Origin: Acidobacteriota bacterium
Lineage (GTDB): Bacteria > Acidobacteriota > Vicinamibacteria > Vicinamibacterales > UBA2999
Direction of reading: 5' to 3'
Length of the DNA: 64,000 nt
NCBI GenBank assembly: GCA_016871195.1
Contig: VFZN01000002.1
Span: forward strand, 1-64,000
Shown here piece by piece: positions 37,225 to 44,671 of the stretch (position 1 is the first letter of the stretch; the number at the start of each line of letters is the position of its first letter). Under the pieces are notes generated by a model, which was not told the origin of the DNA, ran no database searches, and worked only from the letters and a program-made list of their open reading frames with translations. The position numbers and the translations under genes are program-made.

Positions 37225-38376
37225 TCAGGCCTTTGCGGCCTTGCGCGCGCGGTCGCGTGCTGCCCTGGCCGTGCGCTTGCGGGCTTCCTTTTCGAGCGAC
37301 GCGACGAGTTCTGCGCGGCGATGGACGAGCCCCTTGCGCTTGCGGCGCCCGTTCTTGTGCCCGACGGCGTACTCGCAGAACAGCGGGAACGCGATAGTCG
37401 AGTCGCAGTAGGCGACGGCCGTGTCAGGGAGCACACCCGGATTGACCTTGCCCCAGCTGACGGCCTCGGCCGGCGTGGCACCCGAGAGGCCGCCCCAGAC
37501 GACCTGGTCGGTCGTCATCTGAATGAAGTAATCGTTCCCGCCCTTGGGAATGTTGTAGACCTCCCAGAGGGTAGGCTGTCCCTGCAGATAGAAGTTCTTG
37601 GGCGAGCCGCCACCGAGAATGACGCAGCCGTTCTTTTCGGCGGCATAGATCAGCGCGCACACTTCGTTGACGTCGCGGTTCGGATCGATCATCAGCCGCG
37701 CCCCGTTCATCAGCTCGTGATAGGCGATGTTCATCCCGATCGAGCTGTCGCCCGGCGACGAGGTGTAGATGGGAACGCCGCACTTGGCGGCGCGTGCCAC
37801 CAGCGAATACTCGTCGCATCCGGGCCGCACCTTGAGCAGGTGACGGCCGAGGGCGTAGTGCAGGTCGGCGGACGACACGGGGCCATCCAGTCCGCTCTGC
37901 ACTAGGAACTCGCGGATGAACTGGTCGGTGTCGAGTAGCACCTGTGCCGGGAAGAGCACGTCGTAGATGCGGATGACGCCTTCGTCATAGAGCACGCGGT
38001 CGTCGACGAAGGGCGACCCCCGGCGCAGCGTGAAATTGAGGGCGTAATGCAGGTCGTGATAGAGATTCGCGCCTGTGCTGATGATGAAGTCGACTAGCCC
38101 GCGATCCATCATCGAGATGATGCAGCCGCCGAGGCCGGCCGGCGTGAGCGCCCCGGCGATGGTGAGGCCGATGGTGGTGTCGTGCTCCTTCGACAGCATC
38201 TTGTCGGTGAAGATGCGGCAGGCCTCGCCGAGGCGGGCGGCATTGAAGGCCTGGAATCCCTCGTCGATGAGCGTCCGGATGGCGCGCGCGCCCGTGGGGC
38301 GATAATAGTGGATGGGCTTCCCTGAGAGAAATCCCTTGCGTTGCTTCTGTGGTGAACCCGGCGCTCGGTGCGGCAT
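37225..38376 (-). CDS. Deoxyhypusine synthase-like protein
   Basis: 383 aa member of the deoxyhypusine synthase family. Conserved features are LTIAGALTPAGLGGCIISMM, FIISTGANLYHDLHY, the GDSSIGMNIAYHEL segment, CVILGGGSPKNFYLQ and EAVSWGKVNPG, whose Lys corresponds to the catalytic Lys of the eukaryotic enzyme. The tail is Lys/Arg-rich. Bacteria lack eIF5A, so bacterial members act on polyamines; homospermidine-type or agmatine-based products have been proposed. ATG 38376 lies 7 nt after a TACCCT box; an ATG at 38424 would overlap the divergent gene. Confidence 0.85.
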   Translation of the reverse strand: MPHRAPGSPQKQRKGFLSGKPIHYYRPTGARAIRTLIDEGFQAFNAARLGEACRIFTDKMLSKEHDTTIGLTIAGALTPAGLGGCIISMMDRGLVDFIISTGANLYHDLHYALNFTLRRGSPFVDDRVLYDEGVIRIYDVLFPAQVLLDTDQFIREFLVQSGLDGPVSSADLHYALGRHLLKVRPGCDEYSLVARAAKCGVPIYTSSPGDSSIGMNIAYHELMNGARLMIDPNRDVNEVCALIYAAEKNGCVILGGGSPKNFYLQGQPTLWEVYNIPKGGNDYFIQMTTDQVVWGGLSGATPAEAVSWGKVNPGVLPDTAVAYCDSTIAFPLFCEYAVGHKNGRRKRKGLVHRRAELVASLEKEARKRTARAARDRARKAAKA

Positions 38377-38383
38377 CGCCCTT

Positions 38384-38389
38384 AGGGTA
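38384..38389 (-). promoter_or_regulatory. Candidate -10 box (TACCCT) for the leaderless deoxyhypusine synthase-like mRNA
   Basis: TACCCT on the minus strand is followed by 7 nt and then ATG 38376. The spacing matches the other leaderless candidates here. Confidence 0.5.
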
Positions 38390-38414
38390 GCATCTCGGTT
38401 CGACACCGTGTAAC

Positions 38415-39152
38415 GTGGATTCATCGGCCGCCATCGTGCTCACCCTTCCCGTCAGCGAGGTGCTCCGCGCCACGCCCCGTATACTGTGCATCCGGCTGAG
38501 CCTTGGCGACCACCCCTTCCCCTATCTGGCCGGGCAGGCCGTGCGCATCACGGTCGGCGAAGGCCTGCCGGCGCGGCATTACTCGATCGCGTCGACGCCT
38601 GCCGATACGGCGCGCAGCGGCCTGATCGAGCTGCTGATACGCGCAGACGATTCAGGGACAGCCGGGCTAGGCCACGACGCGTCAGGCACGGACCTGCTGC
38701 ACGTCGGGCAGCGCGTGCGTGTCGAGGGACCCTTCGGGCACTTCACGACACCCGCCGTCGACCCGGGGCACGCGGTGCTCGTGGCTGCCGGCGGCACCGG
38801 CATCGCCCCGTTGCGGCCCATGCTGCGCGAGCTGGTCAACTGTGCCGAGCCTCGGCCGATCACCGTGGTCTACTCGGTGCGCGCCGCCGACGAGTTTGCG
38901 TATGTGGACGAGTTGCAGTCGCTGGAGTCCCGAGGAGCGCTGCGGCTGGTACTCACCGTCTCGCGCGATGACCGGCGGTGGGAGGGCCGTCAGGGCCGCG
39001 TCGACCACGTCCTGCTGCGGCAGGCACTGCCTGCTGCGCCCGCGGCGGTCGTCAGCCTGGTGTGCGGACCCATAGATTTTGTGCGGGATGTGCGCGCGGC
39101 GCTGCTGACGCTGGGCGTGCCTGACGCGCAGATCCTGCGCGAGCGATACTGA
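38415..39152 (+). CDS. FAD/NAD(P)-binding ferredoxin reductase-type oxidoreductase
   Basis: 245 aa two-domain flavoprotein reductase. The FAD domain has the RxYS motif in PARHYSIAST, and the NAD domain has VLVAAGGTGIAPLRPML and SLVCGPIDFVRDVRAAL. There is no ferredoxin domain and no membrane segment, so it must pass electrons to a separate partner. The start is GTG 38415, since no ATG precedes the conserved core. It is divergent from the deoxyhypusine-synthase-like gene. The electron acceptor is unknown. Confidence 0.85.
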   Translation: MDSSAAIVLTLPVSEVLRATPRILCIRLSLGDHPFPYLAGQAVRITVGEGLPARHYSIASTPADTARSGLIELLIRADDSGTAGLGHDASGTDLLHVGQRVRVEGPFGHFTTPAVDPGHAVLVAAGGTGIAPLRPMLRELVNCAEPRPITVVYSVRAADEFAYVDELQSLESRGALRLVLTVSRDDRRWEGRQGRVDHVLLRQALPAAPAAVVSLVCGPIDFVRDVRAALLTLGVPDAQILRERY

Positions 39153-41005: not shown

Positions 41006-42388
41006 TCAGGCGCAGGCCGCCAGCCACTGCTGCAGGGCGGCCAGATGCGCCGCGACCGCCTCGGGATGCGTCGACTGCGGCGTCCGCCGCGCGCGCACGG
41101 ATGCAGCGGCCGTCACTCGTGCCTTCACATCATCCGCGAAGAGCGCACTGAACTGCTGCCACTCGTCGATCGAGAGTGCCTCGAACGCGCGGCCGTCCAT
41201 GAGCAGTTGCCGCACCATGGCCCCGACCACTTCGTGTGCCTGGCGGAACGGCATGCCGCGTGATACGAGGTAGTCGGCGACATCGGTCGCCAGCAGCAGA
41301 CCCGAGGCCGCACGCCCGGTGCGCGCCGGATGCAGCGTGAGCCTGCGCAGCACGGCGGCCGTAGCCACCGCCGACACGGCCAGCGTGTCTTCTGCATCGA
41401 AGACCGGCTCTTTGTCTTCCTGCAGATCCTTGTTGTAGCCGGTCGGCAGGCCTTTCATGGTGACGAGCAGTCCGGTCAGGTGGCCAATGGCACGGCCGGC
41501 CTTGCCCCGCACCAGTTCGAGCGGGTCGGGGTTTTTCTTCTGAGGCATCATGCTGCTGCCGGTGGCCGAGGCATCAGCGAGTTCGAAGAAGCCGAATTCC
41601 TCGCTCGTGAAGAGAATCACGTCTTCGGCGATGCGCGACAGGTGCACCATGGCGAGGCTGACAGCATAGAGAAACGTCGCGGCAAAGTCGCGGTCGGATG
41701 AGGCATCCATGCTGTTGGGCACCACCCGGCTGAACCCGAGGCGCTCGGCCAGACGTGCCGTGTCGACCGGATACCCGGTGCCGGCAATCGCCCCGGAGCC
41801 GAGCGGTAGCGCATCGGCTTCGCGCCGGGCCTGGTCGAGTCGCTCGTGGTCCCGGCGCAGGGCCGCGGCATGGCTCAGCAGATAGTGGGAAACCAGTACG
41901 GGCATGGCACGGCGCAGGTGCGTGTAGGACGGCATCAGCGCATCGCCCGCCTGATCGGCCTGCTGCACCAGCGCCGCAATGACCTCGCGGATGCGGGCCT
42001 GCAACTCGGGAATGCGACGCCGGAGGTACAGGCGAAAGTCGACGGAGACCTGCTCGTTGCGAGAGCGGCCGGTGTGCAGCCGGCGGCCAGCATCGCCGAT
42101 GCGGGCCACGAGCTGACGCTCGACAAAGCTGTGCACGTCTTCGTCGGGTCCATCGACCCACGACGGATCGCGGCGTCCCTGCTCCAGGATCGCGTGCAGC
42201 CCGCCTGTGATCGCCGCGGCATCGTCGGCCGACAGGATGCCGGCGTCAGCCAGCGCCGCCGCCCACGCCAGGCTGCCCGTCACATCGTCTTCAAAGAGCC
42301 GGCGATCGAAGCGGAACGACAGGCCGAAATCAAACGCCGCCGGATCGGGGGCGGCATCAAAACGTCCAGACCAGAGATGCTGTGTCAT
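41006..42388 (-). CDS. argH: Argininosuccinate lyase ArgH
   Basis: 460 aa enzyme releasing arginine and fumarate from argininosuccinate. Landmarks are LWSGRFDAAPDP, DVHSFVERQL, HTGRSRNEQVSVDFRLYLR, YTHLRRAMPVLVSHY and the family signature GSSMMPQKKNPDPLEL. It lies 27 nt after the argG-derived gene in the argR-led minus-strand operon. Confidence 0.96.
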   Translation of the reverse strand: MTQHLWSGRFDAAPDPAAFDFGLSFRFDRRLFEDDVTGSLAWAAALADAGILSADDAAAITGGLHAILEQGRRDPSWVDGPDEDVHSFVERQLVARIGDAGRRLHTGRSRNEQVSVDFRLYLRRRIPELQARIREVIAALVQQADQAGDALMPSYTHLRRAMPVLVSHYLLSHAAALRRDHERLDQARREADALPLGSGAIAGTGYPVDTARLAERLGFSRVVPNSMDASSDRDFAATFLYAVSLAMVHLSRIAEDVILFTSEEFGFFELADASATGSSMMPQKKNPDPLELVRGKAGRAIGHLTGLLVTMKGLPTGYNKDLQEDKEPVFDAEDTLAVSAVATAAVLRRLTLHPARTGRAASGLLLATDVADYLVSRGMPFRQAHEVVGAMVRQLLMDGRAFEALSIDEWQQFSALFADDVKARVTAAASVRARRTPQSTHPEAVAAHLAALQQWLAACA

Positions 42389-42415: not shown

Positions 42416-43099
42416 TCAGGCAGGGGAATGCGAGGGCACGGGCATGATCGCCGCTCCCTCGACCCTGAGTGTGACAGTGCCGGTGCGCGCGGCGGCCTGG
42501 CCTGTGGCGTCCAGTTGCTGCCACACCGCCGTGATCACGGGCACGACCTGGTCGGCCCCGACCAGGACTTCGAGTGTCTCGAACAGCTCACGCACCGGCA
42601 GCGGCACGCCGTTCAGGGCGGTGGGCTGCGAGCCCTCGACGGTGAGCGCGAGCACGCAGGCCTCGGCCGGGATGGCGGGGGGTGGCAGCGTGACGACGGT
42701 CAGTGCCGCATCGTGGGCATGCACGGCGGCGGCGAGCGCGCGAGCATCCGCGCCGCGTGCCCCATGCGCGATGACGTCGGCATGTTCCAGTCGGGCTACA
42801 CGCACCAGCGCCTCGGCGATGAGCGGCGCGGCTTGCGCGACGGGCACGGGCCAGGGATCGAGGCCCTGCACCGCCAGCGGCCAGGCCACCTGCCGTGCGT
42901 AGGCATCGGCGACGTCGATGAGGTGGCACTGGTGCGCCCCGGCGGCTCGGGCCTGTGCGGCCCACGCCTCGAGCGGATCAGCGGCGCGGAATCCGCACGC
43001 CACGGCCACGATCAGCGGGGCTGCCTGCGCCCGCAGGTGCGTGAGGGCACGGGTCGACGCCCGGCCTCCGGACCACGCCAGCACGATCGGACCGGTCAC
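42416..43099 (-). CDS. Shrunken argininosuccinate synthase (ArgG)-derived protein
   Basis: 227 aa against about 400 aa for ArgG. Pieces of ArgG remain in order: VLAWSGGRAST at residues 7-16 (canonical PP-loop reads SGGLDTS), APLIAEALVRVARLEHADVI followed by AHGARGADARA (canonical AHGxTGKGNDQ), then the late LTVEGSQPTALNGVPLPVRE and the C-terminal TGTVTLRVEGAAIMPVPSHS. The aspartate/citrulline-binding middle and the MKSRGVYETP region are missing. It sits between argR and argH, the usual place of argG, with a 4 nt overlap with argR and no internal stop. Catalysis looks doubtful; it may be a regulator, a scaffold or a remade enzyme. Confidence 0.75.
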   Translation of the reverse strand: MTGPIVLAWSGGRASTRALTHLRAQAAPLIVAVACGFRAADPLEAWAAQARAAGAHQCHLIDVADAYARQVAWPLAVQGLDPWPVPVAQAAPLIAEALVRVARLEHADVIAHGARGADARALAAAVHAHDAALTVVTLPPPAIPAEACVLALTVEGSQPTALNGVPLPVRELFETLEVLVGADQVVPVITAVWQQLDATGQAAARTGTVTLRVEGAAIMPVPSHSPA

Positions 43100-43560
43100 G
43101 CCAACTCCCGGGGGTCCGCCAAGTGATGAAGGCGCTGCACGAGCGTTCGCGCCTGTCGTGGACCGCGCGCGATCACGAGGATGGTGTCGTCGCCGGCCAG
43201 CGTGCCGACGACACCGGCCAGCCGCGCCCGATCAATTGCCAGCCCGAGCAGCGGGGCCTGACCCGGTCCGGTCCGCAGCACCACCAGCTGCTGGACCGCC
43301 TCGGCCGACGACAAATACTCGGCCAGGGCGCGACCGAGGGTGACCAGCACTGTGGACGCGGGGGCATTCTCGGGCCCGCCCGTCTGGTAGGCGCCATCGG
43401 CCGCGCGCTTGACCAGCCCCAGAGCCTTGATGTCGCGCGACAGCGTGGCCTGCGTCACATCGAAGCCGCGGGTCGCGAGGCGCTGCCTGAGCTGTTCCTG
43501 GCTGCGGATGGCGTCACGCTCGACGAGAGCGCGGATGGCGGCAAGGCGGCGTTGCTTCAT
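43096..43560 (-). CDS. argR: Arginine repressor ArgR
   Basis: 154 aa. The N-terminal winged helix (RLAAIRALVERDAIRSQEQL, VTQATLSRDIKALGLVK) and C-terminal arginine-binding hexamer domain (RTGPGQAPLLGLAIDRA, GTLAGDDTILVIAR) are complete. The GDDT motif contacts arginine. It heads the minus-strand arm of the regulon. An ARG-box-like site covers its own -10 box, consistent with autoregulation. Confidence 0.95.
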   Translation of the reverse strand: MKQRRLAAIRALVERDAIRSQEQLRQRLATRGFDVTQATLSRDIKALGLVKRAADGAYQTGGPENAPASTVLVTLGRALAEYLSSAEAVQQLVVLRTGPGQAPLLGLAIDRARLAGVVGTLAGDDTILVIARGPRQARTLVQRLHHLADPRELA

Positions 43561-43660: not shown

Positions 43661-44671
43661 ATGACCACTGCCGCCCTTCCTGTCAGAGTCGGCCTCGCTG
43701 GCGCCACCGGGTATGCGGGCCAGGAGCTTATCCGACTGCTCGCGCGCCACCCGCAGTTTGTGCTGGCGCAGGCCACCGGGTCGCCCGCCGCAACCACGAC
43801 GCGCCGGCTGCCCGCTCTGGCCCGCGTGTGGGACGGCGATGTGGTGCCGCTTGACGTGGCGGCGCTGGCCGCGGCGAGCGATGTCGTCTTTCTGGCCCTG
43901 CCTGAAGCTGCGTCGGCATCGGTCGGCCCGGCGCTGCTGGACGCCGGCTGCCGTGTCGTCGATCTGTCGGGTGCATTCCGCCTGCGCGATGAGGAGGCCC
44001 GCGCGCGCTGGTATCCGGCCACCGGCGCGCTGCCCGAGGGCGTGGCCTATGGTCTCACCGAGTTCGAGGCCGACGCCATCCGTCAGGCGCGCCTGCTCTC
44101 GAATCCCGGCTGCTATCCCACGGCGGCGCTGCTGGCCCTGCTTCCGCTCATGCAGTCCGGCCTGCTTGCGGACCAGTGCGAACCGGTCATCGATGCCAAG
44201 TCAGGCATCTCGGGTGCCGGCAAGGCCCCGACCGATCGTACGCATTTCTGTGAGAACCACGGCAGCGTGGCGGCCTACGGCGCCTTCCATCACCGCCACA
44301 CACCCGAGATGGTGCAGGCCCTCGGGGGCCGGCGCGTCACCTTTGTGCCGCACCTGGTGCCACTGGACCGCGGCCTGATGGCCTCGGTGCACGTGCGCCT
44401 CACACCCGGCACCGCCGCGGCCGCTGTGGCCGAGGCATTCGCCGGTGCATATGCGTCGGCCCCCTTTGTGCGGGTGACCGGAACCACGCTGCCGGAAATC
44501 AGGGATGTGGTGCACACCAACTTCTGCGACATCGGCTGGGCCTTCGATGCCGACACCGGGCGGCTCTGCGTGATTTCGGTCATCGACAACCTGGTCAAGG
44601 GCGCGGCCGGCCAGGCGTTGCAGAACGCCAACCTCATGTACGGCTTCGACGAACGGACTGGCCTGCTGTGA
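43661..44671 (+). CDS. argC: N-acetyl-gamma-glutamyl-phosphate reductase ArgC
   Basis: 336 aa NADPH-dependent reductase, third step of arginine synthesis. Features are VGLAGATGYAGQELIRLL, VVDLSGAFRLRD, the catalytic Cys in LLSNPGCYPTAALLAL and HFCENHGSVAAYGAFHHRH. It is the first gene of the plus-strand arg operon and overlaps argB by 4 nt. Confidence 0.96.
   Translation: MTTAALPVRVGLAGATGYAGQELIRLLARHPQFVLAQATGSPAATTTRRLPALARVWDGDVVPLDVAALAAASDVVFLALPEAASASVGPALLDAGCRVVDLSGAFRLRDEEARARWYPATGALPEGVAYGLTEFEADAIRQARLLSNPGCYPTAALLALLPLMQSGLLADQCEPVIDAKSGISGAGKAPTDRTHFCENHGSVAAYGAFHHRHTPEMVQALGGRRVTFVPHLVPLDRGLMASVHVRLTPGTAAAAVAEAFAGAYASAPFVRVTGTTLPEIRDVVHTNFCDIGWAFDADTGRLCVISVIDNLVKGAAGQALQNANLMYGFDERTGLL

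Follow-up and report, generated by a model that had tools for sequence, protein, structure and literature searches.

The gene of 227 codons that lies between argR and argH in the window analysed here – a stretch of 64,000 nucleotides from an Acidobacteriota genome of the order Vicinamibacterales – probably descends from an ancestral class I argininosuccinate synthase gene (argG) that was displaced from its reaction, and whose dead product would have been kept for a non-catalytic role in related species while being lost in the lineage of the window. Taken by itself, the window gene is a case of ordinary decay; what is new is the order-wide pseudoenzyme derived from ArgG, a family – referred to below as slot proteins – of which no description was found in the open-access literature.

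The initial annotation had described a 227-residue ArgG remnant, or remade ArgG, at the argG position of the arginine genes, and an intact open reading frame of 227 codons does occupy positions 42416-43099 between argR and argH, on the minus strand, which had not been given (Table 1). Its overlap of 4 nt with argR is real, the motifs SGGRAST and AHGARGADARA read exactly as first reported, and the central segment and the MKSRGVYETP region claimed to be absent are indeed missing, together with the region carrying the citrulline-binding Glu and the C-terminal tail. The further statement that every other arginine gene is present holds for argR, argH, argC, argB, argD, argJ and argF plus an N-acetyltransferase. 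The frame is open over the whole homology, with neither a frameshift nor a premature stop of the kind that marks a pseudogene.

Table 1. Features of the argR–argH region discussed in the text (window coordinates)
Feature	Position	Strand	Remark
Eroded class I ArgG ('slot' protein)	42416..43099	-	227 aa, GTG start
argR, arginine repressor	43096..43560	-	conserved upstream neighbour of slot
argH, argininosuccinate lyase	41006..42388	-	conserved downstream neighbour of slot
argC	43661..44671	+	first gene of divergent arginine operon
Overlap of slot GTG start with argR TGA stop	43096..43099	-	4 nt
Degenerate P-loop WSGGRAST	43052..43075	-	active ArgG: YSGGLDTS
Beta2-alpha2-beta3 block	42899..43006	-	contains order-wide invariant non-catalytic site
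Degenerate substrate motif AHGARGADARA	42737..42769	-	active: AHGCTGKGNDQ

The window protein matches PF00764, the N-terminal HUP domain of ArgG, at 45.5 bits against a cut-off of 27, and does not reach the equivalog cut-offs for ArgG (37.9 vs 268.2 bits for TIGR00032; 56.9 vs 334 for NF001770); its P-loop departs from the ArgG pattern SGGxDTS. The ArgG substrate residues Thr117, Asn121, Asp122, Arg125 and Glu258 correspond to human Thr119, Asn123, Asp124, Arg127 and Glu270 (PMC13289927), and all are replaced or deleted here, with the possible exception, by alignment, of Asp122. Only two of eight key catalytic residues are left – D13, T117, N121 and E258 being lost – and the C-terminal oligomerisation segment is absent, as it is from nearly all eroded slot proteins. 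An AlphaFold2 model built on an alignment of seven distant Streptomyces ArgGs (pLDDT 80) has the whole HUP domain and, after it, a stripped-down synthetase domain; Foldseek searches with this model rank ArgG structures first. Among solved structures, argininosuccinate synthases come closest to the window protein, with an alignment that spans residues 4-116. As the model obtained without homologues is poor (pLDDT 52), we treat the fold as supporting evidence only.

Class I ArgG (NF001770/PRK00509; PDB 1j1z, 6xnq, 7k5z) thus shares with the slot protein an orthologous position, the HUP domain and recognisable sequence over the N-terminal 130 residues, and its structures are the best matches to the model; the slot protein differs in having lost the P-loop Asp and the residues for aspartate and citrulline; it also lacks the C-terminal tail and a large part of the synthetase domain, and scores far under the equivalog cut-offs. 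NCBIfam also recognises a divergent ArgG-related family, NF038212 (argG_rel, argininosuccinate synthase-related protein), yet slot proteins score lower with this model than with NF001770 and far under its cut-off.

One suggestion of the initial annotation was that a normal argG lies elsewhere, and a TIGR00032 search does find a full-length ArgG in the same genome, on contig 16 (C16:60905-62125; 511 bits), which also passes the E. coli-type model NF003779 (870 vs 657 bits). Since this full-length enzyme is encoded on another contig, the 227-residue protein would not be the arginine enzyme of the genome. The E. coli-type ArgG (NF003779/PRK05370) is the presumed supplier of the slot gene's former reaction, albeit as an intact, full-length member of another ArgG subfamily, whose identity to the slot type is about 30%. 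Where a second ArgG accompanies an eroded or missing slot, it is mostly of E. coli type; in Luteitalea and relatives its place is taken by another class I ArgG, and family f8 (G042, G117, G150, G156), in which the argG slot is wholly gone, uses a third, distant type (about 36% identical). Such a second ArgG is present for 72 of 81 eroded or missing slots but for only 12 of the 27 that are intact (Fisher p=8e-6, uncorrected for kinship), and the nine eroded or truncated loci for which none was found belong to genomes that are all drafts of 77-98% completeness. When relatedness was controlled by independent pairs, the association of erosion with the E. coli-type ArgG alone was not significant, there being few informative pairs. 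The window's genome also carries a second ArgH (G000:C5:214440-215801; L172:4444-5805), 68% identical to that of the window and located beside a UvrB-like gene without argR; two ArgH proteins occur in the congeners G003 and G004 as well.

The order argR, ArgG-like gene, argH on one strand is found across Vicinamibacterales. In other families, the middle gene typically encodes a class I ArgG of 370-430 residues with all catalytic residues, and the 227-residue gene is an orthologue of this slot ArgG, not a new duplicate. Within the window's family, by contrast, the slot product forms a size series that runs from 375 residues (G025) through 330-365, 250-320, 227 (the window), 212, 200, about 110-126, 95 and 80 to nothing, the slot being absent altogether in G003, G004, G009 and G015. 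The first two of these belong to the window's own genus; the gene has been deleted from both, and G004 keeps a recognisable 'RIVLA' stump. The initial annotation had held that full-length ArgG in close relatives, restored by one or two indels, would point to an assembly error or recent decay, and absence from all relatives to simple degeneration; the relatives show neither, and present a graded in-frame series instead.

An order-wide survey of 111 loci yielded 27 intact slots, about 73 catalytically dead ones (406 to 80 residues) and about 10 that are empty. In all 100 occupied loci, the slot homology lies in one uninterrupted frame and is never split over frames; of the remaining loci, ten have lost the gene, and in G086 it no longer stands directly beside argH. 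The distribution of the eight key catalytic residues is bimodal: once three partial loci are left out, 27 loci keep at least seven of eight and 70 keep four or fewer, with none between. On a tree of ArgR and ArgH, the state changes between intact and eroded at least 12 times, and since a joint regain of lost residues is improbable, independent losses probably number more than that. Taken together, these comparisons firmly support displacement and a predicted loss of catalysis in the slot gene.

What the dead proteins retain is a set of positions outside the catalytic machinery, numbered here after the intact G048 protein. G37, G53, A54, R56, H58, D61 and E107 occur all together in 66 of the 67 eroded proteins that contain the region; taken singly, R56 is kept in 66 of 67 and H58, D61 and E107 in all 67, whereas the catalytic D13 survives in 17%, and N121 and E258, also catalytic, in hardly any. 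Of 34 ArgGs that come from outside the order and have their catalytic residues intact, only four have R56, two H58 and 17 E107; in intact slots of the order, R56 and H58 are present in 25 and 26 of 27, so that both are at least as strictly kept in the dead proteins (66/67 and 67/67). Synonymous codons in the block vary about as they do elsewhere, for which reason a constraint at the RNA level was rejected and the constraint is placed on the protein. Active-site residues as a group have not been lost more than other positions invariant in intact slots (mean 0.45 vs 0.46), so that single positions have to carry the argument – N121 and E258 at close to zero, the seven-residue site at close to 100%. 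The lone exception among the 67 is the window copy itself, with G37R and R56Q; within the block it has also changed Q38 to A and R46 to A, while G53, A54, H58 and D61 remain.

Selection on the eroded proteins was estimated by the NG86 method – a rough one – for species pairs that share the eroded state, with bootstrap intervals. Six pairs gave dN/dS values of 0.10 (G054/G071), 0.11 (G118/G130), 0.13 (G037/G049), 0.18 (G035/G059), 0.21 (G060/G063) and 0.24 (G106/G159), all with intervals below 0.33 and with dS of 0.4-1.0, which points to purifying selection (0.10-0.25 in the f10, f3 and g2 clades) despite the lost catalytic residues. Other clades are looser, at 0.28-0.47 in g21, 0.39 in g11 and 0.64 in G008/G017. 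In the window's pair, G000/G002, whose slot proteins are only 43% identical, the value is 0.74 over all alignable codons and 0.76 (CI 0.50-1.17) over the N-terminal domain, with ArgH of the same two genomes at 0.096; on this one pair, amino-acid constraint is relaxed as expected of a pseudogene, and, despite an intact frame, the window lineage is by this estimate close to neutral in its amino acids. With dN/dS near neutral and the invariant site partly lost, the window copy is best read as a late-stage relic. The suggestion of a new regulatory or structural paralogue accordingly divides: it suits many relatives, where purifying selection and the invariant site suggest a retained pseudoenzyme with a second function, and fails for the window copy that inspired it.

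The position of the dead gene relative to its neighbours has changed too. The slot overlaps the argR stop in 43 of 66 eroded cases, mostly by exactly 4 nt (31 of 66; range 1-4), compared with 2 of 27 intact ones (p=2e-7, uncorrected for kinship); the median distance of intact slots downstream of argR is 41 nt. Synthesis of the dead protein thus seems to have become tied to that of the repressor. In two loci (L058 and L061, in G060 and G032), argR appears to lack its usual stop and to continue, in a frame other than that of the slot gene, for 67-100 nt inside it. Candidate partners of the slot protein are ArgR, ArgH or a small ligand; the replacement ArgG is an unlikely one, since lineages with different replacement ArgGs keep the same site. 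A scan of ten slot-less genomes for ArgR positions that change with slot loss gave no clear signal.

These observations can be arranged into a probable course of events. The 227-residue gene would have originated as the ancestral class I argG of an argR-argG-argH operon, and, as co-occurrence suggests, its catalysis would have passed to an argG of E. coli type at another place in the genome. Sequence comparison shows that the operon copy was then stripped of its substrate-binding residues, before in-frame deletions removed some 170 residues. Across many related lineages, the protein, though dead, may have been kept for a non-catalytic role on a patch of the HUP domain, as purifying selection and invariance suggest, most likely by binding ArgR or possibly ArgH, with the overlap of start and stop codons keeping its synthesis in step with that of ArgR. 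The window's own lineage would now be losing this function, with amino-acid constraint nearly gone and the site partly destroyed; survival of the frame is probably due to translation running on from argR through the slot, which shields argH expression from polarity.

The last step, taken alone, amounts to an explanation of the whole: the displaced protein could be functionless everywhere, its frame kept since stops and frameshifts would be polar on argH. We consider this unlikely, albeit far from negligible. Graded erosion down to zero, some ten complete losses, slots that are all in frame, and a dN/dS that is close to neutral in the window pair and 0.64 in G008/G017 are what such decay would produce. 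It accounts poorly, however, for dN/dS of 0.10-0.25 in dead clades at dS of 0.4-1.0 with confidence limits below 0.33, or for seven positions invariant in 66 of 67 eroded proteins from which the catalytic N121 and E258 have almost vanished; moreover, some slots lie 50-260 nt from argH, a spacing that weakens the coupling argument in several clades. Because dN/dS is low in other dead clades, frame protection alone is kept as a rival only. An assembly error or a broken full-length gene, conceivable in a draft of 51 contigs, is most improbable given that homologous eroded forms occupy the same place in many genera, complete single-contig genomes among them.

Two further readings would leave the protein an enzyme. 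That it is a minimal but active argininosuccinate synthase, as the initial annotation had ventured, would suit its seat in the arginine operon and its match to the HUP domain, but with a full-length ArgG encoded on another contig and hardly any of the residues for citrulline, aspartate and ATP left, this reading has practically no chance, and it was rejected as far as sequence allows. That it still uses ATP as a HUP enzyme on some other substrate is improbable: the modelled fold appears to be retained and an ArgG-fold enzyme with a different activity exists, the nitrile synthetase ArtA, yet each clade has its own replacements of the P-loop Asp and the substrate residues, without a new active-site motif common to them, and the window copy has lost D13, T117, N121 and E258. 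Both ArtA structures (PDB 9leh, 9lei) match the window model and show the ArgG fold in other use, but ArtA is a working enzyme, unlike slot proteins, which have no conserved active site.

Beyond a displaced enzyme with a retained product, a wider proposal may be put forward tentatively, with a chance slightly below even: that in Vicinamibacterales the HUP patch R56/H58/D61/E107 gives ArgG a second, non-catalytic function, probably exerted on co-translated ArgR, and that at least 12 lineages, through repeated displacement, were left with a pseudoenzyme dedicated to regulating arginine biosynthesis. A precedent for an enzyme paralogue serving as a regulatory subunit in an amino-acid pathway is HisZ, the histidyl-tRNA-synthetase-like regulatory subunit of HisG in histidine biosynthesis (PMC10795190), although its fold is unrelated, its partner is proven where the slot protein has only candidates, and the slot protein would be a displaced ancestral enzyme rather than a duplicate.

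If so, the order offers a natural experiment repeated at least 12 times, in which a second ArgG takes the reaction and the old one loses catalysis and keeps one patch, so that catalytic and non-catalytic constraint on a core enzyme can be separated; it would also indicate that ArgG takes part in arginine regulation in a way so far unrecognised. A single operon supplies the full series of intermediates – enzyme, pseudoenzyme, relic and empty site – and annotation pipelines are likely to label many slot genes ArgG, with misleading pathway reconstructions as a result. Elsewhere in the window, at 37225-38424 on the minus strand, a putative deoxyhypusine-synthase-like gene, as read from its translation, is found in this bacterium.
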